NCBI GenBank assembly: GCA_902779125.1
Contig: CACZAC010000014.1
Location: forward strand, 1-47,951
Length of the DNA: 47,951 nt
Origin: an uncultured Bacteroidales bacterium
GTDB taxonomy: Bacteria > Bacteroidota > Bacteroidia > Bacteroidales > Muribaculaceae
Direction of reading: 5' to 3'
Positions 6,236-40,901 of this stretch are shown piece by piece. The stretch's first letter is position 1. Every line of letters begins with the position of its first letter. A program made the position numbers and the translations under genes. The notes under the pieces were generated by a model. The model was not told where the DNA came from, made no database searches, and was given only the letters and a program-made list of their open reading frames with translations.

Positions 6236-6267
6236 TTGGTTGCAATCAAATTATGTTTATATATTTG
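6236..6267 (+). promoter_or_regulatory. Promoter of the trpB leader, TTG-N21-TATATTTG
   Basis: The -33 TTG (6236-6238) and -7 TATATTTG (6260-6267) place the transcript start near 6274, about 170 bases before trpB. The long leader carries the attenuator described in the next entries. Confidence 0.75.
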
Positions 6268-6294
6268 CAACGTCAACATAAATATGAGATATTA

Positions 6295-6351
6295 ATGTCA
6301 ATGTTTTCAGCATATTGGTGGTGGTGCAACTCAAGATTGAAAAAGTCGTGA
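6295..6351 (+). CDS. Trp leader peptide with three tandem tryptophan codons
   Basis: The 18-residue reading frame MSMFSAYWWWCNSRLKKS (alternative start at 6301) carries TGG-TGG-TGG at 6316-6324 and stops at TGA 6349-6351. It begins about 20 bases after the predicted transcript start. It lies just upstream of mutually exclusive hairpins and of a tryptophan synthase gene, the layout of the ribosome-stalling leader peptides known from enterobacterial trp operons. Three consecutive Trp codons in an 18-codon frame at exactly this place are very unlikely by chance. There is no Shine-Dalgarno site, as is usual in Bacteroidota. Confidence 0.85.
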   Translation: MSMFSAYWWWCNSRLKKS

Positions 6352-6425
6352 GTCGCATGACCATTTGGAATCATTAGGATAACAAAATAGAATAAAAGGT
6401 CTGTCGTTCTCGCGACAGGCCTTTT
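6319..6425 (+). promoter_or_regulatory. Trp attenuator (1:2, 2:3 and 3:4 hairpins)
   Basis: Hairpin 1:2 pairs 6319-6332 (which overlaps the Trp codons) with 6350-6363: 12 of 14 positions pair, one as G-U. Terminator 3:4 pairs 6394-6406 with 6413-6425 (13 bp, one G-U, 6-base loop) and its 3' arm ends in TTTT, 21 bases before trpB. Antiterminator 2:3 can pair 6359-6366 with 6394-6401 (7 of 8). With scarce tryptophan, a ribosome stalled at 6316-6324 would mask arm 1 and free arm 2 to capture arm 3. With ample tryptophan, a ribosome reaching the stop codon at 6349-6351 would mask arm 2 and let the terminator form. Pairings were found by eye; energies were not computed. Confidence 0.8.
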
Positions 6426-6446
6426 AAACATTATTAATAATAATAC

Positions 6447-7811
6447 ATGACCAAAATGAAACAAAAGAGATTTATTCTGCAAGAGAACGAGTTACCCACT
6501 GCATGGTATAACATCCAGGCCGACATGCCCAACAAGCCCATGCCGCTCATCCATCCTGCCACCAAGCAGCCCCTGGGTGTGGACGACTTGGCACGCATCT
6601 TTCCGCGTGAGTGTTGTGTTCAGGAACTGGACACCGAGCATGACTTCATCCCCATCCCCGACGAGGTCATGGATAAATATAAGGCCTATCGTTCTACGCC
6701 GCTCGTTCGCGCTTATGCGCTCGAGGAGGTGTTGCAGACGCCAGCTCACATATATTTCAAGAATGAGTCGGTCAACCCGCTAGGCTCACACAAGGTCAAT
6801 TCGGCGTTGCCTCAGTGTTACTATGCCAAACAAGAAGGAACGACCAACGTCACTACCGAGACCGGTGCCGGGCAATGGGGCGCAGCCTTGGCCTATGCCG
6901 CCTCGGTCTTCGGATTGGAATCAGCGGTCTATCAAGTGAAAATCTCGATGCAGCAGAAGCCTTACCGCTCGTCCATTATGCGTACCTTCGGCGCTGCTGT
7001 GACAGGGTCGCCCTCGATGTCGACTCGTGCCGGCAAGGACATTATCACGCGTGACCCGCAACACCCCGGATCGCTGGGAACAGCCATATCCGAGGCTGTG
7101 GAACTGGCCACCACGACCCCTAACTGCAAGTACACCCTGGGGTCGGTGCTCAACCATGTGGCCCTGCATCAGACGATTATCGGCTTGGAGGCCGAAAAGC
7201 AGATGGCGATAGCTGGCGAGTATCCTGACGTGGTGATTGCTTGCTTCGGTGGCGGCTCCAACTTTGGCGGTATCGCCTTCCCGTTCATGCGTCACAATCT
7301 GAAGGACGGCAAGCAGACCGAGTTTATCGCTGCCGAGCCCGAGAGTTGTCCTAAATTGACAAGGGGAGAATTCCGTTATGACTTCGCCGATGAGGCAGGC
7401 TACACCCCGTTGTTGCCGATGTTCACGTTGGGCCACAAATTTAAGCCTGCTAACATCCATGCGGGCGGTTTGCGCTATCACGGTGCCGGCATGATTATTT
7501 CCCAGTTGCTGAAAGACGGGCTGATGCGAGGTGTGGATATCCCGCAACTGGAGTCCTTTGATGCGGCAATGCTCTTTGCCCGCACCGAGGGCATCATTCC
7601 CGCCCCCGAGTCCGGGCATGCCATTGCTGCTGTCATCCGCGAGGCAGAAAAGTGCAAACAGACTGGAGAGCAAAAGGTCATCTTGTTCAACCTCTCGGGG
7701 CATGGCCTCATTGACATGAGCGCCTATGAACAATACCTGAATGGCGACTTGATGAACTATCAAGTCTCGGATGTGGATATCGCCAGGACACTCAAGAGTG
7801 TGCCAGAATAG
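6447..7811 (+). CDS. trpB: Tryptophan synthase beta chain, TrpB2-like
   Basis: The 454-residue PLP enzyme condenses indole and serine to tryptophan in the cytoplasm. Family signatures are the PLP lysine in GSHKVNSA (about residue 114-121), ETGAGQWG, the phosphate-binding CFGGGSNFGG (about 266-275) and FNLSGHGLIDM near the end. The extended N-terminus (ENELPTAWYNIQADMPNKP) and the length of about 450 residues fit the TrpB2 branch rather than canonical TrpB of about 400. It stands alone, with no trpA, trpC or trpE nearby, so it may salvage indole. The leader peptide and attenuator upstream indicate control by charged tRNA-Trp. A start at 6456 is also possible. Confidence 0.93.
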   Translation: MTKMKQKRFILQENELPTAWYNIQADMPNKPMPLIHPATKQPLGVDDLARIFPRECCVQELDTEHDFIPIPDEVMDKYKAYRSTPLVRAYALEEVLQTPAHIYFKNESVNPLGSHKVNSALPQCYYAKQEGTTNVTTETGAGQWGAALAYAASVFGLESAVYQVKISMQQKPYRSSIMRTFGAAVTGSPSMSTRAGKDIITRDPQHPGSLGTAISEAVELATTTPNCKYTLGSVLNHVALHQTIIGLEAEKQMAIAGEYPDVVIACFGGGSNFGGIAFPFMRHNLKDGKQTEFIAAEPESCPKLTRGEFRYDFADEAGYTPLLPMFTLGHKFKPANIHAGGLRYHGAGMIISQLLKDGLMRGVDIPQLESFDAAMLFARTEGIIPAPESGHAIAAVIREAEKCKQTGEQKVILFNLSGHGLIDMSAYEQYLNGDLMNYQVSDVDIARTLKSVPE

Positions 7812-7849
7812 GAACGAAAGGATTGGTTAAACAATATGGAATTGGATTG

Positions 7850-7880
7850 TGAAGGGCGGAGAGTATTTTTCCGCCCTTCA
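7850..7880 (+). terminator. Hairpin terminator after trpB
   Basis: A perfect 11-bp GC-rich stem (7850-7860 with 7870-7880) lies 39 bases after the stop codon. No clear T-run follows, so termination may be weak or Rho-assisted. Confidence 0.6.
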
Positions 7881-7905
7881 TGATGCTCCTGTGGACGGGA
7901 TGTTG

Positions 7906-7913
7906 TACCTTTG
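7906..7913 (+). promoter_or_regulatory. -7 element TACCTTTG before the sugar locus
   Basis: TACCTTTG matches the -7 consensus and lies about 30 bases before the GTG start at 7943. No good -33 TTTG is present 19-21 bases upstream. A hairpin precedes it. Confidence 0.5.
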
Positions 7914-7942
7914 TGGCACTAGAAACTAATTGAAAACACGAA

Positions 7943-9109
7943 GTGGCTGAACTGAAAAAGAAAGTGTTTGTGTCGGGGTGCTATGACCTGCTGCACTCGG
8001 GCCATGTGGAGTTCTTCAGGCAGGCATCGCAGTATGGCGACCTGTATGTGGGCATCGGCAGTGATAATACCATCGCGGCCTTGAAAGGGCACAAGACGAT
8101 GTACAGCGAGCAGGAACGCCTGTTCATGGTGCGAGCTATCCGCTATGTCAAGGAGGCCTACATCAACCAGGGTGGCGGCTACCTCGACTTCCTGCCCACA
8201 CTGGACATCGTGCGGCCCGACTGCCTTGTGGTCAACGAGGACGGTGACCGCGAGGAGAAACGCGCCTTGTGCCGCGAGCGCGGCATGGAGTACATTGTGC
8301 TCAAGCGGGTCCCAAGCGATGGCCTTGCCGCTCGCAGCAGCACCGACTTGAAAAAGTTGCCCAGCCAGTTGCCCACACGCCTGGACCTGGCGGGTACATG
8401 GATTGACCAGCCCTATGTCTCATGTTATGCCCCCGGTTGGGCGTTGACCATCTCGCTGGAACCCACTTTTGAGATACGTGAGCGATGCGGCCTATCCACC
8501 AGCACGCGCAACACCATCAAGCGCGTGTGGCCCATACAGTTGCCCAACATGGACCCCGAGATGCTGGCACGTCTGGTCTTTTGCCTCGAGAATGACCCCG
8601 AGCGCAGCGACGGCATCGTGAGCGGTGCCCAGGATGCCATCGGCATCTGCGTTCCTGGTCTTGCCCGACATTATTATAATGGCAGTTATTGGCCCGAGAA
8701 GATAGAATATACTTGTGACCCTACCTTGCTCGGCTGGCTGGAAGACCACCTGTGCATGATTCCCATGTTCCCACGTCGCCCCGGTTGCAGCGTGGTGGTT
8801 GGCAAGGACATCACTAGGGAGAAGGTAGAGGTACTGGCGTCTGCCGCATCGGCCTGCTGGGATGCCATCCATCGATGTGACCTAGACGCTTTTGCTGCAG
8901 CCTACAAGGCTTCATTCAACGCCCAGGTGGCGATGTTCCCCGCTATGATACAGCCTGGTGTGCAGGACTACATCGACCGCTACAGCGCCATGCCTGGCGT
9001 GCTGGCGTGGAAGATGCCTGGAGCGGGTGGTGGTGGCTACTTGGCCCTTGTTTGCCGTGACCGCGAGAGTTTCCCTGAGGGAGCCATTACTTTGAAAATT
9101 AGGAGTTAG
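7943..9109 (+). CDS. Bifunctional nucleotidyltransferase-GHMP kinase-like fusion
   Basis: The 388-residue protein starts with GTG; there is no upstream ATG in frame after the predicted promoter. Residues 7-137 form a TagD/RfaE-type cytidylyltransferase fold with the HxGH motif HSGH (18-21) and a late ARSSTDLKK segment. Residues about 143-388 resemble a GHMP kinase of the HddA/Fkp-fucokinase type: RLDLAGTWIDQP (146-157), SGAQDAIG (227-234) and the glycine-rich KMPGAGGGGYLALV (357-370). The usual ATP-loop motif between the first two was not recognised, so kinase activity is uncertain. Next to a RhaM-type mutarotase and a FucP permease, it probably phosphorylates or nucleotidylates a 6-deoxyhexose such as L-fucose; the substrate is inferred only. 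The last codons and the stop lie inside a heptamer repeat. Confidence 0.75.
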   Translation: MAELKKKVFVSGCYDLLHSGHVEFFRQASQYGDLYVGIGSDNTIAALKGHKTMYSEQERLFMVRAIRYVKEAYINQGGGYLDFLPTLDIVRPDCLVVNEDGDREEKRALCRERGMEYIVLKRVPSDGLAARSSTDLKKLPSQLPTRLDLAGTWIDQPYVSCYAPGWALTISLEPTFEIRERCGLSTSTRNTIKRVWPIQLPNMDPEMLARLVFCLENDPERSDGIVSGAQDAIGICVPGLARHYYNGSYWPEKIEYTCDPTLLGWLEDHLCMIPMFPRRPGCSVVVGKDITREKVEVLASAASACWDAIHRCDLDAFAAAYKASFNAQVAMFPAMIQPGVQDYIDRYSAMPGVLAWKMPGAGGGGYLALVCRDRESFPEGAITLKIRS

Positions 9110-9209
9110 GAATTAGGAGTTAGGAATTAGAAGTTAGGAATTAGAAGTTAGGAATTAGGAATTAGGAGTTTGACTTTAATGACCCTAATGTCTTTAATGA
9201 CTTTAATGA
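9097..9209. repeat. Heptamer array (AATTAGG/AGTTAGG) plus 9-bp repeats
   Basis: Ten consecutive 7-base units of the form A(A/G)TTAG(G/A) run from 9097 to 9166, starting inside the last codons of the kinase fusion; the stop TAG falls in the second unit. Four 9-base units close to CTTTAATGA follow at 9174-9209. Similar heptamer arrays follow other genes at 44328-44355 and, in variant form, at 17334-17360 and 26362-26375. Confidence 0.85.
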
Positions 9210-9235
9210 TTCTAGAAACTGGAAACTATGAAATA

Positions 9236-9571
9236 ATGAAACGATATTGCCAAACCCTTGAGCTGCGCGACGACCGCGAGATGATTGAGAAATATGTAGA
9301 GGCCCACGCCCATGTGTGGCCCGAAATCCAGGCTGGAATCCGCAGTGTGGGCATTCTCGACATGCAGATTTATATCCTCGGCAACCGCCTGTTCATGATA
9401 TGCGACACGGTCGATGACTTTGACTGGGAGGCCGACAATGCCCGCTTAGCGGCGCTACCGCGTCAGGCCGAGTGGGAAGCCTACGTCGCCTGCTTCCAGG
9501 GCTGTGACCCTGCTGCCCCTTCCACTGCCAAGTGGCAACTGATGGAGCGAATATTCAAGTTAGGAATGTGA
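9236..9571 (+). CDS. L-rhamnose mutarotase family protein (RhaM-like)
   Basis: The 111-residue cytoplasmic protein (MKRYCQTLELRDD...) has the family signature KYVEAHAHVWPEIQAGI with the conserved His and Trp-Pro-Glu, and the AEWEAYVACFQ segment. Family members interconvert alpha and beta anomers of L-rhamnose or L-fucose before kinase or isomerase steps. An upstream in-frame ATG at 9170 would add 22 residues made only of 9-bp repeats (MTLMTLM...), so 9236 is preferred; this gives the usual length of about 104-111 residues. It sits between the kinase fusion and FucP, supporting a deoxyhexose pathway. Confidence 0.88.
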   Translation: MKRYCQTLELRDDREMIEKYVEAHAHVWPEIQAGIRSVGILDMQIYILGNRLFMICDTVDDFDWEADNARLAALPRQAEWEAYVACFQGCDPAAPSTAKWQLMERIFKLGM

Positions 9572-9611
9572 AATGAGGAATGAGGAATGAGAGAAACTGA
9601 TAATCACAACA

Positions 9612-9661
9612 AATCCCGGCTGATGGTGAAGACATCAGGGCAGATAATCCTGGGATTATTT
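9612..9661 (+). terminator. Possible two-part hairpin terminator after the mutarotase gene
   Basis: An outer AATCCC/GGGATT pair (9612-9617 with 9652-9657) encloses CTGATG/CATCAG (9620-9625 with 9633-9638) and is followed by ATTTTA. GAGGAAT-type short repeats lie just before it at about 9572-9588. Confidence 0.45.
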
Positions 9662-9708
9662 TAGATTGGCATCATTCTCATCATCGAGTAGAAATAATAA
9701 TTGAGTTT

Positions 9709-10191
9709 ATGAAAAAGTTTTTGTTATTGATTTGTATTCTGATTATTGGTGTAATCGTCTTTAACAGTTCTTGTTCTTCGGTTGTAAAAGAGCCTTCTAC
9801 CGTAAGATTCACAGAACTGGACAAGGAAATACAAGACACCCTGTTTGCTATCTGGTACAATGATTATAAAAAGGTGACTGTTGATACAGAATATGTTGAA
9901 TCTATAAACGAATATTGGGTACATGAAACTACGGCGCCTATTGATTTTATTGATTTCACCAACAATTATGTCTTAGAAAGAAAGCAAAATAGAATATTAC
10001 CTTGGGTTAATGATAAAGTAGTTATCAATAAATCGAATGGATGGAAGCACACATTCCCTTCAAGAGAATATGGTCCTATCATTATCAAGGGGGATAAAAT
10101 CTATACTCCAACTATATTCTATTTCTATGGGGTGGCATCAAAATCGGAAATGGATACTTGCTGTTTTAATGTTTATACCATAAAAGATTGA
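9709..10191 (+). CDS. Small AT-rich lipoprotein of unknown function
   Basis: The 160-residue product has a clear signal peptide (MKKFLLLICILIIGVIVFNSSC) with a lipid-attachable Cys at residue 22, then a soluble domain rich in Asp, Asn, Lys, Ile and Tyr. No known domain is recognised. Its DNA is clearly richer in A+T than the flanking sugar genes, with many AAA, AAT and ATA codons, which suggests a recent insertion between the mutarotase and the permease. It probably does not take part in sugar uptake. The frame is intact from ATG to TGA. Confidence 0.7.
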   Translation: MKKFLLLICILIIGVIVFNSSCSSVVKEPSTVRFTELDKEIQDTLFAIWYNDYKKVTVDTEYVESINEYWVHETTAPIDFIDFTNNYVLERKQNRILPWVNDKVVINKSNGWKHTFPSREYGPIIIKGDKIYTPTIFYFYGVASKSEMDTCCFNVYTIKD

Positions 10192-10229
10192 TTGAAAACA
10201 GCCAAGTTGTTTGAATAATTTGAAACAGA

Positions 10230-11546
10230 ATGACAACCGATCAAGACAATAAATCCCGATTGCTGGTGACGCGCGAGGGCGTGAGTTACGTGCTCCCCTT
10301 CGTCGTGGTGACCTGCTGCTTTGCCCTGTGGGGCTTTGCCAACGACATTACCAACCCGATGGTGAAGGCGTTTTCCAAGATTTTCCGCATGAGCGTGACC
10401 GACGGCACGCTAGTCCAGGTCGCTTTCTACGGTGGCTACTTCTGTATGGCACTGCCTGCGGCACTGTTTATCCGCCGCCACTCGTTCAAGAGCGGCATTA
10501 TCATGGGATTGGCGCTATATGCCCTGGGCGTGCTCTTGTTCTTGCCTGCCAAGGCTATGGGCAGTTTTGCCCCTTTCCTGGTGGCTTATTTCATCCTCAC
10601 TTGCGGCTTGTCGTTCCTTGAAACGACTGCCAATCCTTACATCTTGCTCATGGGTGACCGCGAGACCGCCACACGGCGCCTGAATCTCGCCCAGTCGTTC
10701 AATCCCATCGGGTCGCTGGCGGGCATGTTTGTAGCAATGAATTTCATCCAGGCACGGCTCTCGCCGCTCGACACCACCCAGCGTGCTGTGCTCGATGATG
10801 CGCAGTTCGAGGCATTGAAGCAGAGCGACCTGGGCATGCTTATCCAACCTTATACCCTGCTGGGTGTTGTGCTCGTGTTGCTGTTGGTGGTCATGCTGTT
10901 TACGTCCATCCCTGCCGTGCGTCAGTCGGCACGTGAGCGCCATGAGCCGCTGTGGCCCGCTGTCAAGCGGTTGGCGGCCAACAAGCCCTATTGCTGGGGC
11001 GTGGTGGCACAGTTCTTCTATGTGGGCGCACAGATTACCTGCTGGACGTTTATCATCCAATACGGCACACGCGTCTTTATGGCCGAAGGTATGGGCGAAC
11101 AAGCCGCCGAGGTGCTCTCCCAGCGCTATAACATTGTGGCAATGGTGCTGTTCTGCCTGATGCGCTTCGTGAATATCTATCTGATGAAATATATCAAGCC
11201 TGGGCGTTTGATGGCCTTCTTTGCCGCTGTGGCGTTGTTGCTGCTATGTGGAGTCATTTTCATAGGAGGTCGCGTGGGCATGTGCTGCCTTGTTGCCGTT
11301 TCGCCCTGCATGAGTCTGATGTTCCCCACAATCTACGGCATCGCCCTGGGCGGAATGAAGGAAGATACCGAGTTGGGGTCGGCAGGATTGATTATGGCAA
11401 TCTTGGGCGGTAGTGTGTTGCCTGCCTTACAGGCAATGATTATCGACAGCAATGTGCAAGTGTTGCCCGCTGTCAATCTGTCGTTTGTCGTGCCCGTCGT
11501 TTGCTTTGTTGTTGTATTGCTCTACAGCCTGCGCCACACGCATTAA
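10230..11546 (+). CDS. fucP: L-fucose:H+ symporter (FucP-type MFS permease)
   Basis: The 438-residue inner-membrane protein has about 12 hydrophobic segments. Family marks are FALWGFANDITNPMVKAFSKIF in the first helix, the FYGGYFCMALPAALFIRR region, and ETTANPYILLMG around residue 130-145, which holds the Glu needed for proton coupling in FucP. It imports L-fucose or a similar sugar. It is the transporter of the locus with the mutarotase and the nucleotidyltransferase-kinase. The genes for fucose isomerase, fuculokinase and aldolase are not in the window. Its stop codon lies only 3 bases from the stop of the convergent dockerin gene, with no hairpin in between. Confidence 0.9.
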   Translation: MTTDQDNKSRLLVTREGVSYVLPFVVVTCCFALWGFANDITNPMVKAFSKIFRMSVTDGTLVQVAFYGGYFCMALPAALFIRRHSFKSGIIMGLALYALGVLLFLPAKAMGSFAPFLVAYFILTCGLSFLETTANPYILLMGDRETATRRLNLAQSFNPIGSLAGMFVAMNFIQARLSPLDTTQRAVLDDAQFEALKQSDLGMLIQPYTLLGVVLVLLLVVMLFTSIPAVRQSARERHEPLWPAVKRLAANKPYCWGVVAQFFYVGAQITCWTFIIQYGTRVFMAEGMGEQAAEVLSQRYNIVAMVLFCLMRFVNIYLMKYIKPGRLMAFFAAVALLLLCGVIFIGGRVGMCCLVAVSPCMSLMFPTIYGIALGGMKEDTELGSAGLIMAILGGSVLPALQAMIIDSNVQVLPAVNLSFVVPVVCFVVVLLYSLRHTH

Positions 11547-19847: not shown

Positions 19848-22800
19848 CTATAGGATGTAGGCAATGACGGCGTTGATGTCGGCGATAGTTACCTCGCCAT
19901 CGCTGTTCACGTCGGCTCGGCCTTCATAGATGTCAGGATGTCCCAGTATGATGCTGATAACACAATTCACATCGGCGATGCTCACCTCGCCATCAGCGTT
20001 CACGTCACCCTTGAGTGAATCAACTTTTCCCGTGAGATAGCCAGGACTGCTTGAACCGCGGTCAATACGGGCATAAGTGGCATCCACATGTTTCTCATCA
20101 TAAACTGTGCCCTTGCCACCGACAAGACTAGTGCAGCCAGCAAACATTTCACTGGACTCTGTCACGTTACTTGTACTCCAGCCCTTGCCGGCAAATATTG
20201 TTTCCAGATGCTTGCAGCCAGCAAACATGCCTCCCATGTCGGTCACACTTGAGGTGTTGAAGCGACTCAAGTCAAGGGATGGCAGGGAATCGCAGCCCTG
20301 GAACATATATTCCATCTCGGTCACATTCCTGGTATTGAAACCGCTCAAATCAATATCATTCAAGGACTTGCAGCCACTGAACACATAACCCATGTATTTC
20401 ACATTCGAGGTATTGAAGCCGCTCAAGTCAATAGTGGTCAAATACTTGCAGCCAGCGAACATGCCAGCCATGTCTTTCAGATTATCTGCCTTGAAGCCTC
20501 TCAGGTTAAGGGAGGTCAAAGTATCGCAATCCGAGAACATGCGCGCCATATTTGTTACTCTTGAAGTATTAAAACCGCTCAGGTCGAGCGAAGTCAAAGA
20601 ATCACAGTCACTGAACATCGCCCACATGTTTGTCACATTCTCGGTATTGAAATTGCTCAAATCAATGGATTTCAACGATTTACAACCAGCGAACATTCTT
20701 CTCATGTCGGTCACTGAGCTGGTGTTTAAACGATTGATTCCAGTAATGGAATCCAGCTCAGCCATTCCGCTAAACCAACCGTAAGTGGATATGGGACGGG
20801 CTGCGACAAAGGTGCTGTCTAACAGCACATGTCTGACATTCCTTGCATGAGCAGACCAACCAGGCTGATTTGTGCCTTTATTCAGCGAATATGGCGTGCC
20901 AGGGCGGGTTCTGCGCTCTTCATCGTAGTAGAAAGTCAGCGTCGTTTCATCATTGGAAAGCAGTGCATAGGACAAATCTGTGGAGGATAGATAACCCGGA
21001 TTGCTTGAGCCACCGTCGATATGGGCACGGGTGGCATCCACATGGTTCCCATCATAGACTGTACCTTGCTCACCGACAAGCTTGGTGCATCCATAAAACA
21101 TGTTGCTGGATTCAGTCACGGAATCTGTACTCCAGTTATAGTCAACATATATTGACTCCAGATGACTGCAGTTATAGAACATGGAATCCATGTTCCAGAC
21201 ATTCGTGGTATTAAAGCTACTCAAGTCAAGAGAAGTCAAGGACTTGCAGTTAGCAAACAGGTGATACATGATTCCCACATTCTCAGTGTTGAAGCCACTC
21301 AAGTCAAGGGAAGTCAAGGACTCGCAGCCATCAAACATCGACCAGATGTGCGTTACATTTGAGGTATTGAAGCTGCTCAAGTCAAGAGATGTCAAGGATT
21401 TGCAGCCTTCAAACATAAATCTCATCTCTGCAACACGCTCAGTGTTGAAACCACTCAGGTCAAGGGATGACAAGGATTCACAGCCATAGAACATACCTGC
21501 CATATCTCTCACGCGCTCAGTGTTGAAACCACTCAGGTCAAGGGATGACAATGATTCGCAGCCATAGAACATGCCTGGCATATCTGTTACGCGCTCAGTA
21601 TTGAAGTCGCTCAAGTCAAGGGATGACAATGATTCGCAGCCATAGAACATGAGTGCCATGGATTCGACATTCGAGGTATTGAAGCCGCTCAAGTCAATAG
21701 AAGTCAAGGATTGACAATTGCCAAACAAGTATGCCATATCTCTCACGCTCTCGGTGCTGAAACCACTCAGGTCAAGCGATGGCAAGGATTCGCAGCCATT
21801 GAACATTTCGCTAATGTCTATTAAACTTGAGTTGCTGAGGCCACTCAAGCCTATGGAAGTCAAAGATTTGCAGCCATAGAACATCCTTTCCATATTTCTC
21901 ACATTAGAGGTGTTAAAACCACTCAGATCAAGGGTTGGCAAAGATACACAGCTTTCGAACATCCTTCTCATGTCTGTCACACTCGACGTGTTGAAACCGC
22001 TCAAGTTAAGGGATTTCAAAAATGTGCACGCACCGAACATCCCCCACATGTTTGTCACATTCTCGGTGTTAAAACTACTCAAGTCAAGGGATACCAAAGA
22101 ATGGCAGGAGGCGAACATCTCACGCATGTTTGTCACACTCGACGTGTTGAAGCCACTCACATCAAGAGATGGCAAAGAGTCACAGCCTTCGAACATGCCA
22201 CTCATGTCTGTCACACTCGACGTGTTGAAACCACTCAAGTTAAGGGATTTCAAAGATTCGCAGCCCCTGAACATGAATGCCATGTTTTTTACATTCGAGG
22301 TGTTGAAGCCGCTTAAGTCAAGGGATGCCAAAGACTCACAAGCAGCAAACATCATTTCCATGTTTGTCACATTCGAGGTGTTGAACCCACTCACGTCAAG
22401 AGATGAAAATGAGCAACCAGCAAACATCATTTTCATGCTTGTCACCTTCGATGTATTAAAGCCCCTCACATCAAGAGATTGCAAACGCGAGGATGTTAAA
22501 AACATGGAATCCATGTTAGTCACATTCGAGGTGTTGAAGCCACTCACATCAAGAGATGAAAATGAGCAACCAGCAAACATCGCACTCATGTCTGTCACAC
22601 TGGAGGTCTTGAAACCACTCAAGTCAAGCGATGGTAAATGAGAGCAACCAAAAAACATTCTGCTCATGTTTGTCACACTGGAGGTGTTGAAGCCACTCAC
22701 GTCAAGAGATGTCAAAGAATAGCAATAATAGAACATGCCACCCATGTCTGTCACCGAACTGGTATTTAAATATTCGATTCCAGAAATGGAACGAAGGCGA

Positions 22801-23111
22801 TACATTTGGTTAAACCAATAGTGAGTGGAAGTGGGACGGGCAGTTGCAAATGAAGGGTCAAACACCACCCGAGTAATACCAAACCTGTTCCCATGCCAAT
22901 CGGGAACACCGTCCCCAGTATTCAATGAATAGGACGTGCCCTGGCGGGTGCTGCGCATTTCATCAAAGTAGAACGATAGCGTGCTGTCGGCCTCGGTAAA
23001 TACCGAGTAGGCTTCTTGTGCCGTGGCTACAATTGATACAAGCATCAGCAACAGCAGCATCAGGCATCGGCCCATGGAATTCTGGAAATATAATGGTCGT
23101 TTCATCGTCAA
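19848..23111 (-). CDS. BspA/DUF285 repeat surface protein with C-terminal dockerin-like domain
   Basis: The 1087-residue protein begins with a signal peptide (hydrophobic MLLLLMLVSIVATA near residue 18-31). Two blocks follow, each with a cap (TLSFYFDEMRSTRQGT... and TLTFYYDEERRTRPGT...), a solenoid of DUF285 repeats of about 24 residues (SLDLSGFNTSNVTNM..MF.GC), and a closing segment (VDATRAHIDGGSSNPGYL / VDATYARIDRGSSSPGYL). I count 22 repeats in the first block and 8 in the second. The C-terminus is a dockerin-like pair, GDVNADGEVSIADVNCVISIIL and ADVNSDGEVTIADINAVIAYIL, ending at the stop codon. Such proteins are surface adhesins in Bacteroidales; the partner is unknown. The extended -7 box at 23147-23160 drives it. 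Confidence 0.9.
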   Translation of the reverse strand: MTMKRPLYFQNSMGRCLMLLLLMLVSIVATAQEAYSVFTEADSTLSFYFDEMRSTRQGTSYSLNTGDGVPDWHGNRFGITRVVFDPSFATARPTSTHYWFNQMYRLRSISGIEYLNTSSVTDMGGMFYYCYSLTSLDVSGFNTSSVTNMSRMFFGCSHLPSLDLSGFKTSSVTDMSAMFAGCSFSSLDVSGFNTSNVTNMDSMFLTSSRLQSLDVRGFNTSKVTSMKMMFAGCSFSSLDVSGFNTSNVTNMEMMFAACESLASLDLSGFNTSNVKNMAFMFRGCESLKSLNLSGFNTSSVTDMSGMFEGCDSLPSLDVSGFNTSSVTNMREMFASCHSLVSLDLSSFNTENVTNMWGMFGACTFLKSLNLSGFNTSSVTDMRRMFESCVSLPTLDLSGFNTSNVRNMERMFYGCKSLTSIGLSGLSNSSLIDISEMFNGCESLPSLDLSGFSTESVRDMAYLFGNCQSLTSIDLSGFNTSNVESMALMFYGCESLSSLDLSDFNTERVTDMPGMFYGCESLSSLDLSGFNTERVRDMAGMFYGCESLSSLDLSGFNTERVAEMRFMFEGCKSLTSLDLSSFNTSNVTHIWSMFDGCESLTSLDLSGFNTENVGIMYHLFANCKSLTSLDLSSFNTTNVWNMDSMFYNCSHLESIYVDYNWSTDSVTESSNMFYGCTKLVGEQGTVYDGNHVDATRAHIDGGSSNPGYLSSTDLSYALLSNDETTLTFYYDEERRTRPGTPYSLNKGTNQPGWSAHARNVRHVLLDSTFVAARPISTYGWFSGMAELDSITGINRLNTSSVTDMRRMFAGCKSLKSIDLSNFNTENVTNMWAMFSDCDSLTSLDLSGFNTSRVTNMARMFSDCDTLTSLNLRGFKADNLKDMAGMFAGCKYLTTIDLSGFNTSNVKYMGYVFSGCKSLNDIDLSGFNTRNVTEMEYMFQGCDSLPSLDLSRFNTSSVTDMGGMFAGCKHLETIFAGKGWSTSNVTESSEMFAGCTSLVGGKGTVYDEKHVDATYARIDRGSSSPGYLTGKVDSLKGDVNADGEVSIADVNCVISIILGHPDIYEGRADVNSDGEVTIADINAVIAYIL
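20200..22760. repeat. Tandem 72-bp coding repeats of the DUF285 protein
   Basis: About 30 units of roughly 72 bp encode the 24-residue repeats; two neighbouring units around 21500-21640 are almost identical over about 60 bases, which points to recent unit duplication by slippage or recombination. Confidence 0.85.
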
Positions 23112-33623: not shown

Positions 33624-36600
33624 TTATTTTATTACCTTAGATGTAGTGCGGGTGCCGTCAGTGTAGGTAGTTACGACTAAGGTCACGCCGCTCTCAGGAC
33701 GGTCAACACGCTGGCCAGCCACATTGTAGTAGTCCACACGGGCAATGGTCTTAGCACTGTTCAGCTCGCTTATATTGGTCGTGCTGTTCACGCCGATGGT
33801 GAAGTTGTCGAGCAATACAGTCTGACAGTCAGCGGTCACCAGCTCAATGTCCTTCACACCGATAACATCCTCATTAGAGGACGTTGCCGTAACGTCAAAG
33901 GTCAGCAGAACACCATCATTGCCATTGATAGCGTCCAATTCAGGCGAAAAGCACAAAGTGCGTATGTCGCCATTATCCAAGGAATTCACAGCAAGGGCAT
34001 GACCTCCTGCACGGTCTGTCAACTGGAAGTTGCTAGCCGTGAGGCCATCGGGAATATCCAAATCGAGCTGGAAGGCGGTGTAGGCCATCGCATTGTCAAG
34101 CAGGATGCTCACCTTGCGGGTTTCGCCGGGCTTGAGTGTGATGGCTCCGGCGCTCATGCAATCACCATTGTTGTACAAGGCGGGAGCACGTCGGGGAGCA
34201 TTCTGAGTGGGATTGAGCACCATCCAAGCGATACGCGTCACATCGGTCACGGTGATGTTGTTGTCACCATTCACATCGGCAGCGCTAAAGATGAACGGTG
34301 AGGGATTCAATTCCAACACATATTGTGAAGTGACTACCACATCGGTCACCGTGACGGTGCCACTAGCATTGGCATCACCCAATAGATAGGCCTTCGTATG
34401 AACATTGGCAGCCACATCGGGGGCAGCGAGTTCCTCAAAGTCACTGTTGGTAAACAAAGTGTTCTTCAATTGAATGCTGTAGTCGGTATCGGCTTCGGCA
34501 TTATCTGCCACCTTGACGGTGATGTAAAACAAGTCATCGCCACTGTTGCCCGTGAATGGCTTATAGTTTGACGAGTAGCACAACACTCGCACAGCACCAT
34601 TTGAGACATCATCACTCATAAGGCTGTGGGTGCGTGTCATGCGTCCTGAAGGATCAATGAGATATTCCCCGTCTTCCTTCACAATCTCCAGACCTTCAGG
34701 CAAGAAGATGTCTGTCTGGAACGAGACAATGCTTTCAGTATTCGTCATCATAACAGGGATAACAATCGTTTCTCCACTGAACGCGCTGGTGTCGTTCATC
34801 GACAAATAATTGTCAAAGTCACTTAAGTCTGGCAAAACAGTCACTTCACAAGAGGCGCTCAAGTTGGAGCCATCGGTAGTTGTTGCGGTGATGATGGCAG
34901 TGCCGTGAGTAATCGCGGTTACTAAGCCATTATCATCAACATTTGCAACAACAGGATCACTACTCGTCCATGCTATTGTTTTATTGGTAGCATTAGCAGG
35001 CACCACAGTCGCAGACAATTGTAAAGTTTCACCCTTAGCCAGTTCGGCGCTACTCTCGTTTAAATAAAGAGATACAACCAATTGTTTGACAATAAGGTCA
35101 CATGTGGCGCTCAAGTTGGAGCCATCAGCTGTCGTGGCTGTGATAGTCGCAACTCCTGGACCAACTGCTGCTACTAGACCATTATTGTTAACAATAGCAA
35201 CCGCACTATTGCTAGTGGACCAGGTAACTGCGTTATTCGTAGCATTACTGGGTTGTATAGTTGTTGTTAGCAGCATGGTCTCGCCCACAGTCATCTCGGC
35301 GCTGTTCATATTCAGAGCTATCGAAGTGGCATGGACTTGCACACTAACCGTGCATGTAGCACTCAAGTTACTGCCATCGGTTGTGCGCACGGTGATAGTC
35401 ACCGTCCCGGTGCCGACGGCACCGATATTGAGGCGTGTGTTGTTCACAACTTGAGTCACTATCACGTCATTGTCGGGGATAATCCATTCCAACGTCTTGT
35501 TGTCTGCGTCAGCAGGCAGCACAGTTGCAATAAGCGTGTGCATGCCATTGGGCTCGAGAGAAAGTTGGTTATCACTCAGCGTAAGGCTCTCTACCAGCAA
35601 CGGTGAGACAGTCACATGGCAGGCGACACGCACGTTATCAATCATAGCCACAATGTCGGTTTCACCCATAGCAACGGCCGTAACCAGACCGGTACTGCTC
35701 ACCGTAGCTACAGCAGGATTCATACTCAACCAGGTCACAGATGTGTTGGTAACACCACTAGGTTGAAGAGTGGCTGTAAGCTGTGCGGTTTCACCCTTGG
35801 ATATCGCGACTGAGGACTTGTTCAACTTGATAATAACGGCACGCACATACGCCTCCTCTACGATGTTAGCAAACTCACCCCAACCCTGGGATGTAAAATA
35901 CCTCATTCTACTTCCAGCAGGCACATAGAGCGTTTGCGGGTTGGCAAAAGCACCCTCTCCACAAGGTCGCGGATCTGTTGCTGAAACGTAAGCAACGCTG
36001 ATGCCATTGGAGAAAGCCCCGGCTGCGATGTTTTCTATATTATCGCCGATGACCACGGCGCCGCAAGTTCCTTTAAAGGCACCTGAAACGATGGTTTTCA
36101 CGCTATTGGGCAACACTAAAGTTTTGCCGCTCATCGCCAATGTCGGCATCCCAGCAGGGATGTTTTCTACTCCATTACCGAATTGCAAGGTAGTGAGCGA
36201 AGTATTAAAAGATGTACTTCCAATAGATGTGCAATTCACAGCATCCCAAATGACAGTTTTTAATCTATCGCAGTTATAGAACGCATAATCACCGATAGTT
36301 ATAACAGAGTTGGAGATAGTGACACTTGTCAGACTAGTACATTTATAGAACGTACGATAACCGATTGAAGCAAGTGAGTTTGGAATATTGATGCCTGTCA
36401 ACCCACTGCAGTTTTCGAAGGCGCTATTGCCAATGAAAGTAACAGAGTTGGGAATCGTTATACTAGTAAGACTGCTGCAACCATAGAACGCATTATTACC
36501 AATAGAGGTGACAGAATTGGGGATTGTGACGTTAGTCAGAGCACTACAGCCATTGAACACAGAGTTGCCAATTGAAGAAACAGAACTAGGGATTGTGATA

Positions 36601-37394
36601 CTAGTCAACCCGCTGCAACCTGAAAAAGCATCCGGGCCAATGGACGTGATAGTGTTAGGAATCGTGACACTGGTCAACCCACTGCAGCCATAAAATGCAT
36701 TGCTACCAATAACGGAAATTGAGCCAGGGATGACCAGATGCTTGACTTCCGCACCATTTAAAAACAAATGATGCGCGCAGGAGAGAGGATTAGCATTATT
36801 ATCACTGAACTTAATATTACACCATGCCTCCAAATCAGTAATCTGAACACTGGCCATTCCACTGCAGCCTTCGAAGGCATCATAGCCAATGGAAGTAACA
36901 GAACTAGGGATGTTGATGCTGGTCAGTCCACTGCAGCCAAAGAACGCATCGTCACCGATTGTTGTGACAAGCGATGGGATATTGACACTAGTCAGTCCGC
37001 TACAGCCATTGAACGCATTGTCTCCGATTGTTGTGACAAGCGAAGGGATATTGATGTTAACTAGCCCGCTACAATAGTAAAAAGCATAATTACCGATTGA
37101 AGTGACTGAATTAGGGATTGTAACACTAATCAATCCACTACAGTTAGAGAACGCTCGATAACCGATTGAAACAACGGTATAGGTGATTCCTCCGTAAGTG
37201 ACGGTTGAGGGAATGGTTACGTTCCCACTGTAATCACTGGAATAGGAGTCATTGACATAACTCTTATAAGTCACTTGTACTTTGTTGCCACTACGGTTAT
37301 AGTAGATGCCATTGACCATAAAGTCATAGGCAGTGGCTGTAGCTGGCAGCAGGAGTGCCAGCAACAAGAGAATTGTTTGGATAATTCGTTTCAT
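33624..37394 (-). CDS. BspA-like LRR protein with BIG2, cohesin-like, dockerin-like and T9SS domains
   Basis: The 1256-residue protein has a signal peptide (LLLLALLLPATATA), then FMVNGIYYN and about fifteen LRR_5 repeats of 23 residues (IPNSVTSIGNNAFYGCSSLTSI, residues about 60-500). Four BIG2 Ig-like domains follow (about 515-853, each ending like TTDGSNLSATCxVTV), then cohesin-like domain 1 (about 855-990), a dockerin-like pair (about 1003-1065, GDANASGTVTVTDVVVTSQYVL and ADVNGDNNITVTDVTRIAWMVL), cohesin-like domain 2 (about 1075-1190) and a type A T9SS tail (VDYYNVAGQRVDRPESGVTLV to the end). It is a cell-surface adhesin or scaffold. Its C-terminal 400 residues are nearly the same as in the next gene upstream. 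Confidence 0.9.
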   Translation of the reverse strand: MKRIIQTILLLLALLLPATATAYDFMVNGIYYNRSGNKVQVTYKSYVNDSYSSDYSGNVTIPSTVTYGGITYTVVSIGYRAFSNCSGLISVTIPNSVTSIGNYAFYYCSGLVNINIPSLVTTIGDNAFNGCSGLTSVNIPSLVTTIGDDAFFGCSGLTSINIPSSVTSIGYDAFEGCSGMASVQITDLEAWCNIKFSDNNANPLSCAHHLFLNGAEVKHLVIPGSISVIGSNAFYGCSGLTSVTIPNTITSIGPDAFSGCSGLTSITIPSSVSSIGNSVFNGCSALTNVTIPNSVTSIGNNAFYGCSSLTSITIPNSVTFIGNSAFENCSGLTGINIPNSLASIGYRTFYKCTSLTSVTISNSVITIGDYAFYNCDRLKTVIWDAVNCTSIGSTSFNTSLTTLQFGNGVENIPAGMPTLAMSGKTLVLPNSVKTIVSGAFKGTCGAVVIGDNIENIAAGAFSNGISVAYVSATDPRPCGEGAFANPQTLYVPAGSRMRYFTSQGWGEFANIVEEAYVRAVIIKLNKSSVAISKGETAQLTATLQPSGVTNTSVTWLSMNPAVATVSSTGLVTAVAMGETDIVAMIDNVRVACHVTVSPLLVESLTLSDNQLSLEPNGMHTLIATVLPADADNKTLEWIIPDNDVIVTQVVNNTRLNIGAVGTGTVTITVRTTDGSNLSATCTVSVQVHATSIALNMNSAEMTVGETMLLTTTIQPSNATNNAVTWSTSNSAVAIVNNNGLVAAVGPGVATITATTADGSNLSATCDLIVKQLVVSLYLNESSAELAKGETLQLSATVVPANATNKTIAWTSSDPVVANVDDNGLVTAITHGTAIITATTTDGSNLSASCEVTVLPDLSDFDNYLSMNDTSAFSGETIVIPVMMTNTESIVSFQTDIFLPEGLEIVKEDGEYLIDPSGRMTRTHSLMSDDVSNGAVRVLCYSSNYKPFTGNSGDDLFYITVKVADNAEADTDYSIQLKNTLFTNSDFEELAAPDVAANVHTKAYLLGDANASGTVTVTDVVVTSQYVLELNPSPFIFSAADVNGDNNITVTDVTRIAWMVLNPTQNAPRRAPALYNNGDCMSAGAITLKPGETRKVSILLDNAMAYTAFQLDLDIPDGLTASNFQLTDRAGGHALAVNSLDNGDIRTLCFSPELDAINGNDGVLLTFDVTATSSNEDVIGVKDIELVTADCQTVLLDNFTIGVNSTTNISELNSAKTIARVDYYNVAGQRVDRPESGVTLVVTTYTDGTRTTSKVIK

Positions 37395-37502
37395 TGTTGT
37401 TAGTTATTATTATTTAGTTATTAGCTTCTTCAACTAAGAAATACGCAAATCATACGAATTTGTGCACTAGGAACAATTAGTTAAATCTGTAAAAAACGCA
37501 GT

Positions 37503-40500
37503 TTATTTAATAACCTTAGCAGTGGTGCAGGTACCGTCGGTATAAGTGGTAACAACTAGGGTCACGCCACTCTCGGGACGTTCGATACGTTGTCCGACAA
37601 GGTTGTAGTAATCTACTCGGGCGATAACTTTGGTGCCATTCAGTTCGCTCATGGTAGCTTCGCTGTTTACACCGATAGCGAAGCCGTCGAGTAACACGGT
37701 CATGCAATCGGCAGTCACTAGCTCAATGTCCTTCACGCCGATAGCACCTTCGATAGCAGCACCTGCTGTTACATCAAAGGTCAACAAAGCGCCATCATGG
37801 CCACTGATGACATCCAATGCGGGAGAATAGCACAAGGCGCGCAGGTCACCATTACCCAATGAATTCACGGCAAGGGCATGACCACCTGCACGGTCTGTCA
37901 ACTGGAAGTTGCCTGCAATAAGGCCATCGGGAAGGCCCAGGTCAAACTGGAAAGCACTGTAGGCCATTGTATTGTCAAGCATGATGCTCACCTTGCGGGT
38001 TTCACCAGGCTTGAGTGTGATTGCTTCGGCGCTCATGCAGTCACCACTGTTCCACATTGCGGGAACACGTCGGGGAGCATTCTGAGTAGGATTGAGCACC
38101 ATCCAAGCGATGCGAGTCACATCGGTCACAGTGATGTTCCCATCAGCATTTACATCGGCTGCCTCAAAGATAAACGGTTGAGGATTCTGCTCCAGCACAT
38201 ATTGAGCCGTTAATACCACATCGGTCACTGTCACGGCACCACTGCCGTTAACGTCACCTAATAGATAGGCCTTCACATTTAGGATGGCAGCCACATCTGG
38301 GGCAGCGATCTCCTCGAAGTCACTAGTCGTGAACAACGTGTTCTCTAGCTGAATGATGTAGTCCCCCTTGGCATCATCGTTGACTTTGACAGTGATGTAG
38401 AACAGATCATCGCCACTATTACCTGTGAAAGGTTTATAGTTCGACGAATAACACATCACACGTACAGCTCCACTGGAGACATCGTTGCTCATGATGCTAT
38501 GGGTACGTGTCATGCGGTCCGACGGATCAATGAGGTATTCCCCATCTTCCTTAACAATCTCCAAACCTTCGGGCAATAGAATGTCTGTCTGGAAAGAAAC
38601 GACTTGTTCTGCATTAGTCATAGCCACAGGAATGACTATTGTATCGCCATGGAACACTTCAACATCATTCAATGATAGATAGTTGTCATAATCACTTAAT
38701 CTGTCGGTTACAACCACAGTACACGGGGCTCTTAGGTTACTTCCGTATCCAGTCGAAGCGGTAATAGTAGCATTACCTGGTGCAATTGCAGTGACTAGGC
38801 CATTGCTAGAAACAGTTGCAACCCGGCTATCACTCGTTGACCAATACAAGGTCTTGTTGGTAGCATTAGCAGGAAGCACGGTCGCCGACAGTTGCAAGGT
38901 CTCACCTACCTCCAACTTGGCGTTTTCTTGACTCAATACGACCTCGGTCGGCTGAATCTCTGTAACGAAAACGCGGCAAATGACAAATTTGCCTTGACAG
39001 ATGGCCTGGATTTCACATTCGCCTGTTCCAACGGCAGTGACGACTCCATCTTTCACCGTCGCAACACTCTTATTTGTGGATTGCCAGATGATGGTGTCAG
39101 GTACAACATGGGCCGGGGTAATAATTGGGTCAAAAGTAAATTGGCTGCCCTTCAATATGCTTATCGAATCTTGACCAAGACTGAAATCCGATATTGGTGT
39201 AATATCCCCAATGATATTGGTAAAATTGCACCAATATGGTGCAGTAAAATATGCTGCCAGAGATGACGCTGGTACATGCAACTCAGCATCATAATCCGTA
39301 AAAGATGGATAATCATAATAATTCTCTCCTTTACCGTTACAAATAGGCGGAGTCGTCGCATAAGAATAAATCGTCGTTGGATTAACATTCATATATTCCA
39401 CTCCAGTAACGCCAGTGCCAATATACAATGTTTTAAGACTTGGCAACGGTCCACTATACCATTTGCCATCACCTGTGAAGTACAACGACTCCAACTCACA
39501 CATCAAATCATTCTTATCGTAGTCTTCAGTAATGCAATCTTTATTAACTGTTACTGGCAATATCATTCGTTTCAAGTTTGTGCAGCCAGTGAATGCACTC
39601 CAAAACATATCTTTAATAGTATTGGGCATAGATATACCTGTCAAGTCAACACAGTTCTCAAATGCATTACCTCTGCCCAATGCCCCGTTATCTATTCCCA
39701 TGACGGTTTTTCCTATAACTGTAGTCGGTATTACCATATCTCCAGAATATTCAACATACCTATGGTAATTATAAGACGAATTTCCATAAATTGGGGAGGC
39801 AACATAAACCTCATCACTATCATAATCATAATCATCATAATACCAATCATATGGATAATAATTATACTTATCAGACCTATAACATATCCCTGATTCCATG
39901 AAATCAAAATCCACTCTATCGTAGGGTGGCCACAGTTCACCATACGGTTCACCTAATTCAAGTATCAAATTATCGCTTGGCAATTTTCCCTCCTCAACAG
40001 CATGGATAAAAAAAGCATAACGAGCTGGTGGTCCTTCTACTACTTCATAAGTCGAATAAGACAAACTAAATACAACTTCCCCATTATCTTTTTTTTCATA
40101 ATCTAAAGACAGTGGCCACCATAAACGGAGCCCATGATAAAACGCCTCGGCATACAACTTACAATTCTCAGCTGGTTGGAAAGTCACAGTAATATTTACG
40201 AGTTTATCAACTGAATAATAACATTTAATCGTTGCTGGCGGTGTTGGTGTTTTCTCCCAATCATAGCCATAAATCCAAGAAACGAGATGATGTCTTTCAT
40301 TTACTTCTTTATATGCCTGATAGGCTTCTGATGGAACATAAAGAACAATAGAAAAACAACCAATGAATTCCATAGAGTATCCTTCGCAATACCATCCATC
40401 ATACATATCATTGTAATCATAGACATCAAATGGAAAATCATGTAATTCATCATAATAAAAACGATTATTGCCAGATTTATCATTATCATAATCATCATAA

Positions 40501-40901
40501 GCATCAAAAGCATCCTCCATAGATGGGGGCACAACAGGCTTTAAAAAAAGTTTTAATGATCTTTGTAAACCATAGAAAGCACTTCTGCCTATTGAAGTAA
40601 CAGCTTCTGGTATTGTGATTTCACATACATCAGCTCTCCAGAATGCACTGTCTCCTATCGCTGTAACTTTATAACTCACACCATCATAAAAGACAGAGTT
40701 TGGAACAACTATACTATACTCACGATAATTGGTGCAATAATACCAGTCATTATTAAGAATGTTATGTGTAACTTCGACTGTGTTGTTGGATGTTATATTG
40801 TAATAAATTCCATCGACCTCAAAGTCGTAGGCGCTAGCACTAAGTGTACACATCACACTCATAAGTAGCGCCAAGATATTCAGCAGTTGTCTCTTCTTCA
40901 T
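37503..40901 (-). CDS. BspA-like protein with BIG2, cohesin-like, dockerin-like and T9SS domains
   Basis: The 1132-residue paralogue of the neighbouring 1256-residue protein has a signal peptide (MKKRQLLNILALLMSVMCTLSASA) and FEVDGIYYNI. LRR_5-like segments occur around 75-110 and 395-460, with two Tyr/Asp-rich low-complexity inserts (about 128-170 and 338-365). Residues about 220-320 may be a beta-sandwich. Two BIG2 domains (about 570-645 and 650-733), cohesin-like 1 (about 733-865), a dockerin-like pair (about 877-940, GDVNGSGAVTVTDVVLTAQYVL and ADVNADGNITVTDVTRIAWMVL), cohesin-like 2 (about 950-1070) and the T9SS tail follow. The canonical promoter is at 40951-40982. The first half of the gene is AT-richer than the second, consistent with a mosaic origin. 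Confidence 0.88.
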   Translation of the reverse strand: MKKRQLLNILALLMSVMCTLSASAYDFEVDGIYYNITSNNTVEVTHNILNNDWYYCTNYREYSIVVPNSVFYDGVSYKVTAIGDSAFWRADVCEITIPEAVTSIGRSAFYGLQRSLKLFLKPVVPPSMEDAFDAYDDYDNDKSGNNRFYYDELHDFPFDVYDYNDMYDGWYCEGYSMEFIGCFSIVLYVPSEAYQAYKEVNERHHLVSWIYGYDWEKTPTPPATIKCYYSVDKLVNITVTFQPAENCKLYAEAFYHGLRLWWPLSLDYEKKDNGEVVFSLSYSTYEVVEGPPARYAFFIHAVEEGKLPSDNLILELGEPYGELWPPYDRVDFDFMESGICYRSDKYNYYPYDWYYDDYDYDSDEVYVASPIYGNSSYNYHRYVEYSGDMVIPTTVIGKTVMGIDNGALGRGNAFENCVDLTGISMPNTIKDMFWSAFTGCTNLKRMILPVTVNKDCITEDYDKNDLMCELESLYFTGDGKWYSGPLPSLKTLYIGTGVTGVEYMNVNPTTIYSYATTPPICNGKGENYYDYPSFTDYDAELHVPASSLAAYFTAPYWCNFTNIIGDITPISDFSLGQDSISILKGSQFTFDPIITPAHVVPDTIIWQSTNKSVATVKDGVVTAVGTGECEIQAICQGKFVICRVFVTEIQPTEVVLSQENAKLEVGETLQLSATVLPANATNKTLYWSTSDSRVATVSSNGLVTAIAPGNATITASTGYGSNLRAPCTVVVTDRLSDYDNYLSLNDVEVFHGDTIVIPVAMTNAEQVVSFQTDILLPEGLEIVKEDGEYLIDPSDRMTRTHSIMSNDVSSGAVRVMCYSSNYKPFTGNSGDDLFYITVKVNDDAKGDYIIQLENTLFTTSDFEEIAAPDVAAILNVKAYLLGDVNGSGAVTVTDVVLTAQYVLEQNPQPFIFEAADVNADGNITVTDVTRIAWMVLNPTQNAPRRVPAMWNSGDCMSAEAITLKPGETRKVSIMLDNTMAYSAFQFDLGLPDGLIAGNFQLTDRAGGHALAVNSLGNGDLRALCYSPALDVISGHDGALLTFDVTAGAAIEGAIGVKDIELVTADCMTVLLDGFAIGVNSEATMSELNGTKVIARVDYYNLVGQRIERPESGVTLVVTTYTDGTCTTAKVIK

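Follow-up and report, generated by a model that had tools for sequence, protein, structure and literature searches.

The orphan trpB2 gene of an uncultured Bacteroidales bacterium (Muribaculaceae) is preceded by a tryptophan attenuator which is real and conserved, and which very probably works. The element was found in the window, i.e., the whole stretch of 47,951 nucleotides that was analysed (contig CACZAC010000014.1), and it is highly probable that it acts as a ribosome-mediated transcription attenuator coupling trpB2 expression to charged tRNA-Trp. The basis is computational and comprises sequence, conservation, covariation of two hairpins and mutually exclusive predicted folds; from these we infer ribosome stalling, termination, the response to tryptophan and indole salvage. 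A first-pass annotation had proposed the logic of trp attenuation at an isolated trpB2, and conservation and order-level covariation support this proposal, the regulation being what these patterns suggest.

The elements of the leader are collected in Table 1. The -7 box of its promoter is of the Bacteroidota type. The Bacteroidota promoter box TAnnTTTG is given in PMC6414381, and such a box lies 53-85 nt 5′ of the Trp codons in 16/16 named leader loci. Both the promoter and the 18-codon leader with its TGG TGG TGG had been recognized in the first-pass annotation and were confirmed from the sequence. Counterparts of the leader frame occur in 58/58 aligned leaders, and WWW, WW or WCW is present in all 58, the Trp codons having served as the initial selection criterion for most of these loci. 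In the W-C-W leaders (L009, L010, L012 and L016) a Cys codon replaces the middle Trp codon and the RNA arms are kept. Over the whole window, short ORFs (8-45 codons) with WWW occur twice on the + strand and never on the - strand, the second + strand case being a GTG-start frame inside the gene 7943-9109. As in a trp attenuator, the 5′ arm of hairpin 1:2 overlaps the Trp codons; the hairpin claimed earlier (6319-6332/6350-6363) is consistent with our fold, and the claimed terminator is present in the minimum free energy (MFE) structure, whose energy (-53.3 kcal/mol, z -6.4) was equalled by 0/200 dinucleotide shuffles.

Table 1. Features of the trpB2 leader and its gene in the window.
Feature	Position	Strand	Basis
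Bacteroidota-type promoter: TTG 6240-6242 and -7 box TATATTTG 6260-6267	6240-6267	+	read from sequence
Sub-threshold RF01692 Bacteroid-trp match, 37.7 bits (cut-off 49)	6272-6405	+	covariance search at E-value threshold
Leader ORF MSMFSAYWWWCNSRLKKS, 18 codons, ATG 6295, stop TGA 6349-6351	6295-6351	+	sequence
Three tandem Trp codons (TGG TGG TGG)	6316-6324	+	sequence
Protector hairpin 1:2, arm 1 6318-6338, arm 2 6344-6364	6318-6364	+	folding, order-level compensatory changes in helices 1-3
Main antiterminator helix (predicted), 5′ strand GUCGUGAG, holds leader stop codon, pairs with 6409-6416	6345-6352	+	folding, conservation
Antiterminator second part (predicted), 6354-6357 and 6359-6362, pairs with 6398-6406	6354-6362	+	folding, conservation
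Terminator hairpin, arms 6394-6406/6413-6425	6394-6425	+	folding (part of MFE), order-level covariation
trpB2, stand-alone TrpB-like PLP enzyme gene	6447-7811	+	NF009057, TIGR01415

The trpB2 product scores 681 bits with NF009057 (cut-off 366) and 587 bits with TIGR01415 (cut-off 518.85), and its conserved start is probably ATG 6456 (MKQK...), because the relatives L003-L007 are without the first ATG. The source genome (3.35 Mb) holds this TrpB-type match only, a second TrpB not being found, and neither trpA nor indole-glycerol-phosphate synthase gave a match in it (14/14 control genomes positive for each); its completeness of 90.7% leaves some doubt over gene absences in a single genome and less for the genus, where trpA is over the cut-off in only 5/101 genomes. 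A tryptophanase gene is present in two pieces at the ends of contigs C34 and C39 (L269 and L270), with NF053783 TnaA as the best model, each piece scoring under the cut-off for the whole protein, as fragments do; inspection by eye of the 500 nt before the gene revealed no tandem TGG frame that would indicate a Trp leader. Breakdown of tryptophan to indole and its resynthesis by TrpB2 may thus coexist in this genome. Since trpA and indole-glycerol-phosphate synthase were not found and tryptophanase is present, the likely role of TrpB2 would be tryptophan synthesis from indole, a compound for which the cell would lack a de novo route. For Thermococcus kodakarensis, a link between indole salvage and the enzymes TrpB1 and TrpB2 has been reported (Hiyama 2014, cited in PMC11085991). 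Downstream of trpB2, the genes at 7943-11546 have the appearance of a fucose/rhamnose-type sugar set (a nucleotidyltransferase joined to a kinase-like tail, a mutarotase, PF05336, and a FucP symporter), and large proteins with BspA-type leucine-rich repeats, dockerin or Big_2 domains are encoded at 19848-23111 and 33624-40901.

No Rfam family reaches its gathering score in the window, T-box and riboswitch families included, and such a scan missed the leader because its match to RF01692 stays below the cut-off; at an E-value threshold this match is a full-length alignment (model positions 1-131). Two Rfam matches at E 1 or better lie around the leader, and Trp_leader, the Rfam family of enterobacterial trp leaders, is not among them. 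Canonical leaders are at or over the RF01692 cut-off in 4/6 cases of one set and 7/20 of another, and the cut-off is exceeded by 0/20 other trpB2 loci and by 0/101 genus genomes, six of the 101 giving a match below it at E 0.01. Gathering-score scans, in other words, miss the trpB2-linked leader branch in 20/20 further loci.

Trp attenuation before Bacteroidota trp operons is already known as Rfam RF01692 (Bacteroid-trp). The motif is tabulated in PMC2864571, a Trp attenuation leader precedes the trp operon of Flavobacterium psychrophilum (PMC6414381), clues to leader-peptide attenuation exist in the same species (PMC9723704), and leader-peptide-like small ORFs are mentioned for Bacteroides thetaiotaomicron (PMC7366714). 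Trp attenuation in Bacteroidota, to which the first-pass annotation had extended the enterobacterial logic, is therefore not new. No closer report on trpB2 attenuation or Bacteroidota attenuation was found in the open-licence literature searched. What is new is the explicit switch and its target: trpB2 stands here as an orphan, in a genome that yielded no trpA, no indole-glycerol-phosphate synthase and no further TrpB. The original description of Bacteroid-trp (PMC2864571 supplements) may, however, already hold the antiterminator.

The close type of trpB2 (at least 91% identical) was found in 29 genus genomes, none of the five trpA-positive ones among them, and the leader lies directly 5′ of the gene in 26/29, with G032 counted through its RF01692 match alone. 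In two others (G080 and G088) it stands at the end of another contig and is presumably linked to trpB2, and in the remaining one (G078, locus L085) the arms are deleted and the terminator hairpin is kept before trpB2. In G080, the end of L144 and the start of L104/L008 show matching inverted contig ends (GTCCACTAAAAA type) between the terminator and trpB2, as if a mobile element had inserted there. Among 80 named trpB2 loci (genome_contigs), a pattern search found 16 with the leader, one cut by a contig edge and 63 without it. When these 63 leaderless loci and L085, L109 and L110 were put through a covariance search, 14 matches had an E value of 0.1 or lower; those read as directly before trpB2 were L085 (42 bits) and L074 (31 bits). 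At L074 (4897-4982) the promoter box is followed, with no leader in between, by a terminator of the same sequence type; the arms appear to have been lost a second time here and the terminator to have stayed.

On a TrpB2 tree made by a quick method, leader-bearing loci group strongly together: 5 to 7 changes account for their distribution vs ~30 when labels were shuffled. L027 and L038 carry it within a mostly leaderless TrpB2 clade, in which L074 keeps the terminator, a placement that suits an old origin of the leader with losses. Across 33 distinct trpB2 leaders the arms, Trp codons and loop are nearly letter-identical and hairpin 1:2 is paired in 97.3% of cells, its covariation within this set alone not going beyond shuffles.

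The leader is also recognizable in front of canonical trp genes. In six genus genomes with a canonical trpB (G001, G003, G004, G005, G044 and G045) a WW/WWW frame and a terminator-like hairpin were seen by eye upstream of the gene, and across the order the 450 nt upstream of canonical trpB contain a short WW frame in 52/109 cases vs 3/109 on the reverse strand (Fisher p 1e-15), a few of the 52 possibly being chance frames. A model built from trpB2 leaders only (R1) finds canonical trp leaders across the order, up to 65 bits (50 loci); since these loci were selected mostly by WW, R1 tests structure and sequence and not the Trp codons. In a joint alignment of 34 trpB2 and 24 canonical leaders (A2), which was fitted to the model and carries a bias toward the structure, 93.2% of cells pair and 25/31 pairs have changes on both sides, a number matched by 0/500 shuffles, slid versions giving 8-11. 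Taken together, this argues clearly that the window leader and the order-wide leaders before canonical trp genes are homologous. The first-pass annotation had proposed to look for conserved Trp codons and covarying stems in relatives. Relatives indeed retain the Trp codons, the two hairpins and the geometry of the switch, and the hairpins covary at the level of the order, hairpin 1:2 not doing so beyond shuffles within the trpB2 set alone.

Weak family-wide R1 matches (≤37 bits) were set aside; several lay antisense to true leaders, the terminator being palindromic, and the one in G045 lies 5′ of a canonical trpB. Direct descent of the leader from the surviving trp operons of the genus is not supported, as five of these operons (L142, L145, L146, L147 and L148) score only ~17-30 bits with R1 vs 59 bits for G001. 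In that genome (L141), canonical trpB occupies 6666-7949 (-) and the 59-bit relative of the leader 7864-7983 (-). Downstream of this trpB the next ORF runs the other way, inspection by eye of the 8 kb read around it revealed no further trp gene (6 kb of the contig lie outside), and the G001 genome gave no trpA. This single canonical trpB, preceded by a close leader, is a hint that such leaders may survive the loss of their operon.

Regarding the switch, nascent RNA ending at 6416-6420 was predicted to fold, when arm 1 was removed, into a compound antiterminator of -21 to -22 kcal/mol made of both parts given in Table 1, and, when arm 1 was present, into hairpin 1:2 and the growing terminator. 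The full-length RNA was predicted to favour the terminator with or without masking of arm 1, so that the choice must fall during transcription. Of the 58 leaders, 51 have the antiterminator as nascent-RNA MFE structure when arm 1 is masked and 7 do not, 3 giving the terminator; when arm 1 is intact, 47 give the terminator and 5 the antiterminator. Shuffling of arm 2 left the antiterminator in 8.9% of draws. As modelled, formation of the antiterminator would preclude hairpin 1:2 as well as the terminator, and vice versa.

Conservation points to the same pairing. The compound antiterminator is paired in 97.8% of cells across the 33 trpB2 leaders vs 27-48% when slid, with no two-sided changes and no covariation beyond shuffles. 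At order level (57 rows) the main helix, GUCGUGAG/CUCRCGAC, is paired in ~94% of cells vs 25-47% when slid and has at least 7 consecutive pairs in 49/57 rows; the observed 94.1% compares with a shuffle mean of 92.6%, 0/2000 shuffles being as high, and at one compensated position an A has a U opposite in 7/7 (p 0.012). The helix is mostly conserved rather than covarying at this level. It explains the conservation of the terminator loop, which hairpin and terminator alone leave unexplained, as the partner strand consists of this loop plus the 3′ arm; alignment folds ending before the terminator 3′ arm do not reveal it. The antiterminator had first been placed at 6359-6366/6394-6401, of which the GACC/GGUC part (6359-6362/6398-6401) stands and the longer helix was missed. 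This short part was rejected as the whole antiterminator: it exists, but its pairs do not covary within the trpB2 set.

The leader stop (UGA or UAA) falls at one fixed place within the antiterminator strand in 42/58 leaders, six bases upstream in 5/58 and at varying places in the other 11/58. A ribosome finishing the peptide would therefore occupy the antiterminator strand, and the geometry claimed at the outset, in which the stop codon is placed to mask arm 2, agrees with the position of the stop inside this strand of arm 2. Selection at the peptide level on the SRLKKS tail was rejected as the main cause, because 5/58 leaders stop two codons sooner and because the letters of the tail also spell arm 2 and the antiterminator strand.

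We propose that, when tryptophan is plentiful, the ribosome would pass WWW and reach UGA at 6349-6351, where it would cover GUCGUGAG and the rest of arm 2, so that the terminator would form before trpB2. When tryptophan is scarce, the ribosome would stall on UGGUGGUGG and mask arm 1; the freed arm 2 (6345-6362) would then capture the terminator loop, the 3′ arm and the lower 5′ arm (6398-6416), and with this antiterminator formed RNA polymerase would proceed into trpB2. Without translation, hairpin 1:2 would sequester arm 2 and the terminator would form. The TrpB2 product would make tryptophan from indole and a serine-type donor.

The terminator of the window has a strong helix and a U-run of four only (6422-6425), and a simple terminator scan called no terminator at the leader on the + strand. 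In the genus the U-tract holds on average 4.24 T in 8 nt (n=25) vs 6.42 before canonical trpB (n=24; Mann-Whitney p 3e-8); termination may be leaky in the genus, or the element may partly act otherwise. This weak tract would fit a real switch that acts mainly on trpB2 translation or RNA stability and not on termination, the start-adjacent hairpin with its decayed U-tract blocking ribosome loading or protecting or marking the RNA. The distance from hairpin end to start codon (median 34 nt in the genus vs 75 in other leader-bearing trpB2 loci), the persistence of the hairpin in L085 and L074 after the loss of leader and arms, and ribosome binding that in this group is said not to use Shine-Dalgarno sites speak in the same direction. 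However, 34 nt is close to the median of 40.5 nt before canonical trpB, which indicates no shift of the hairpin to the start codon, a good U-run is retained at L074, and compensatory changes keep the terminator helix matched, so that we regard a switch of this kind as improbable.

L085 and L074, in which promoter and terminator hairpin remain while leader, Trp codons and arms are missing, are not explained by pure attenuation. Under the simple model they would be always off, which would call for a second role of the hairpin, assembly errors or decaying genes; they may be natural variants expected to be always off, decaying genes or assembly errors. The same two loci, along with the scarcity of trpA in the genus, could be read as signs that the element is a decaying relic, inherited from a trp operon and reduced to constant partial termination with no true control by Trp, but the near identity of arms, Trp codons and loop in the 33 distinct leaders and the persistence of both alternative folds (antiterminator in 51/58, terminator in 47/58) make this highly improbable. 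As for an RNA that would itself bind Trp or tRNA, as a riboswitch or T-box does, the small ORF being incidental, a conserved and strongly structured leader would suit it, but there is next to no chance of it given that the window has no T-box or riboswitch match at gathering score and the surroundings of the leader none at E 1 or better, and given the in-frame tandem Trp codons of all 58 leaders and their mostly fixed stop.

Transcription attenuation of trpB2 by a translating ribosome, the reading we prefer, would mean that a Trp attenuator has outlived its operon and controls an orphan gene, and it would give trpB2 of rumen Bacteroidales a testable role, the recapture of indole under Trp limitation. 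It would also offer a case of coupled attenuation, testable in a compact leader, within a phylum said to lack Shine-Dalgarno initiation. For Bacteroid-trp RNAs it would supply a concrete antiterminator, which is absent from the Rfam match as aligned here. A wider reading, which we hold tentatively as possible rather than probable, joins these points: the attenuator of a lost trp operon now sits on TrpB2 and gates indole recapture, with G001 as an intermediate and with the standard switch of Bacteroidales. If so, indole recapture would be gated against Trp supply in a cell that has tryptophanase and is seemingly unable to make indole, the lone canonical trpB of G001 with its close leader would represent an intermediate stage, and the Trp attenuators of Bacteroidales would as a standard have their stop codon in an antiterminator strand that grips the loop and 3′ arm of the terminator.

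Compared with known systems, the window leader shares with RF01692 the phylum, the Trp-codon leader, the hairpin and the terminator 5′ arm, and an RF01692-positive leader (L187, 90.7 bits) is found by the trpB2-based R1 model at 65.5 bits. The Rfam match, however, ends at 6405 and excludes the terminator loop and 3′ arm, hence the antiterminator, and RF01692 serves trp operon genes, as judged from the family name and PMC6414381, whereas the window leader serves a lone trpB2. Because its score is under the cut-off, the leader is not formally filed under RF01692; the resemblance nevertheless clearly argues for homology, and the leader would work like a member of that family. The enzyme belongs to the same TIGR01415 family as other TrpB2 enzymes, whose solved relatives include PDB 4qys, 6hte and 6hul. 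With Escherichia coli trpL the leader has in common the tandem Trp codons, the protector hairpin, a terminator hairpin, a predicted, mutually exclusive antiterminator and a stop codon placed to mask arm 2. In contrast to trpL, the terminator contributes its loop and 3′ arm, and not only its 5′ arm, to the predicted main antiterminator helix, the leader stop codon lies inside the antiterminator strand, and the leader is predicted to control one gene instead of an operon.
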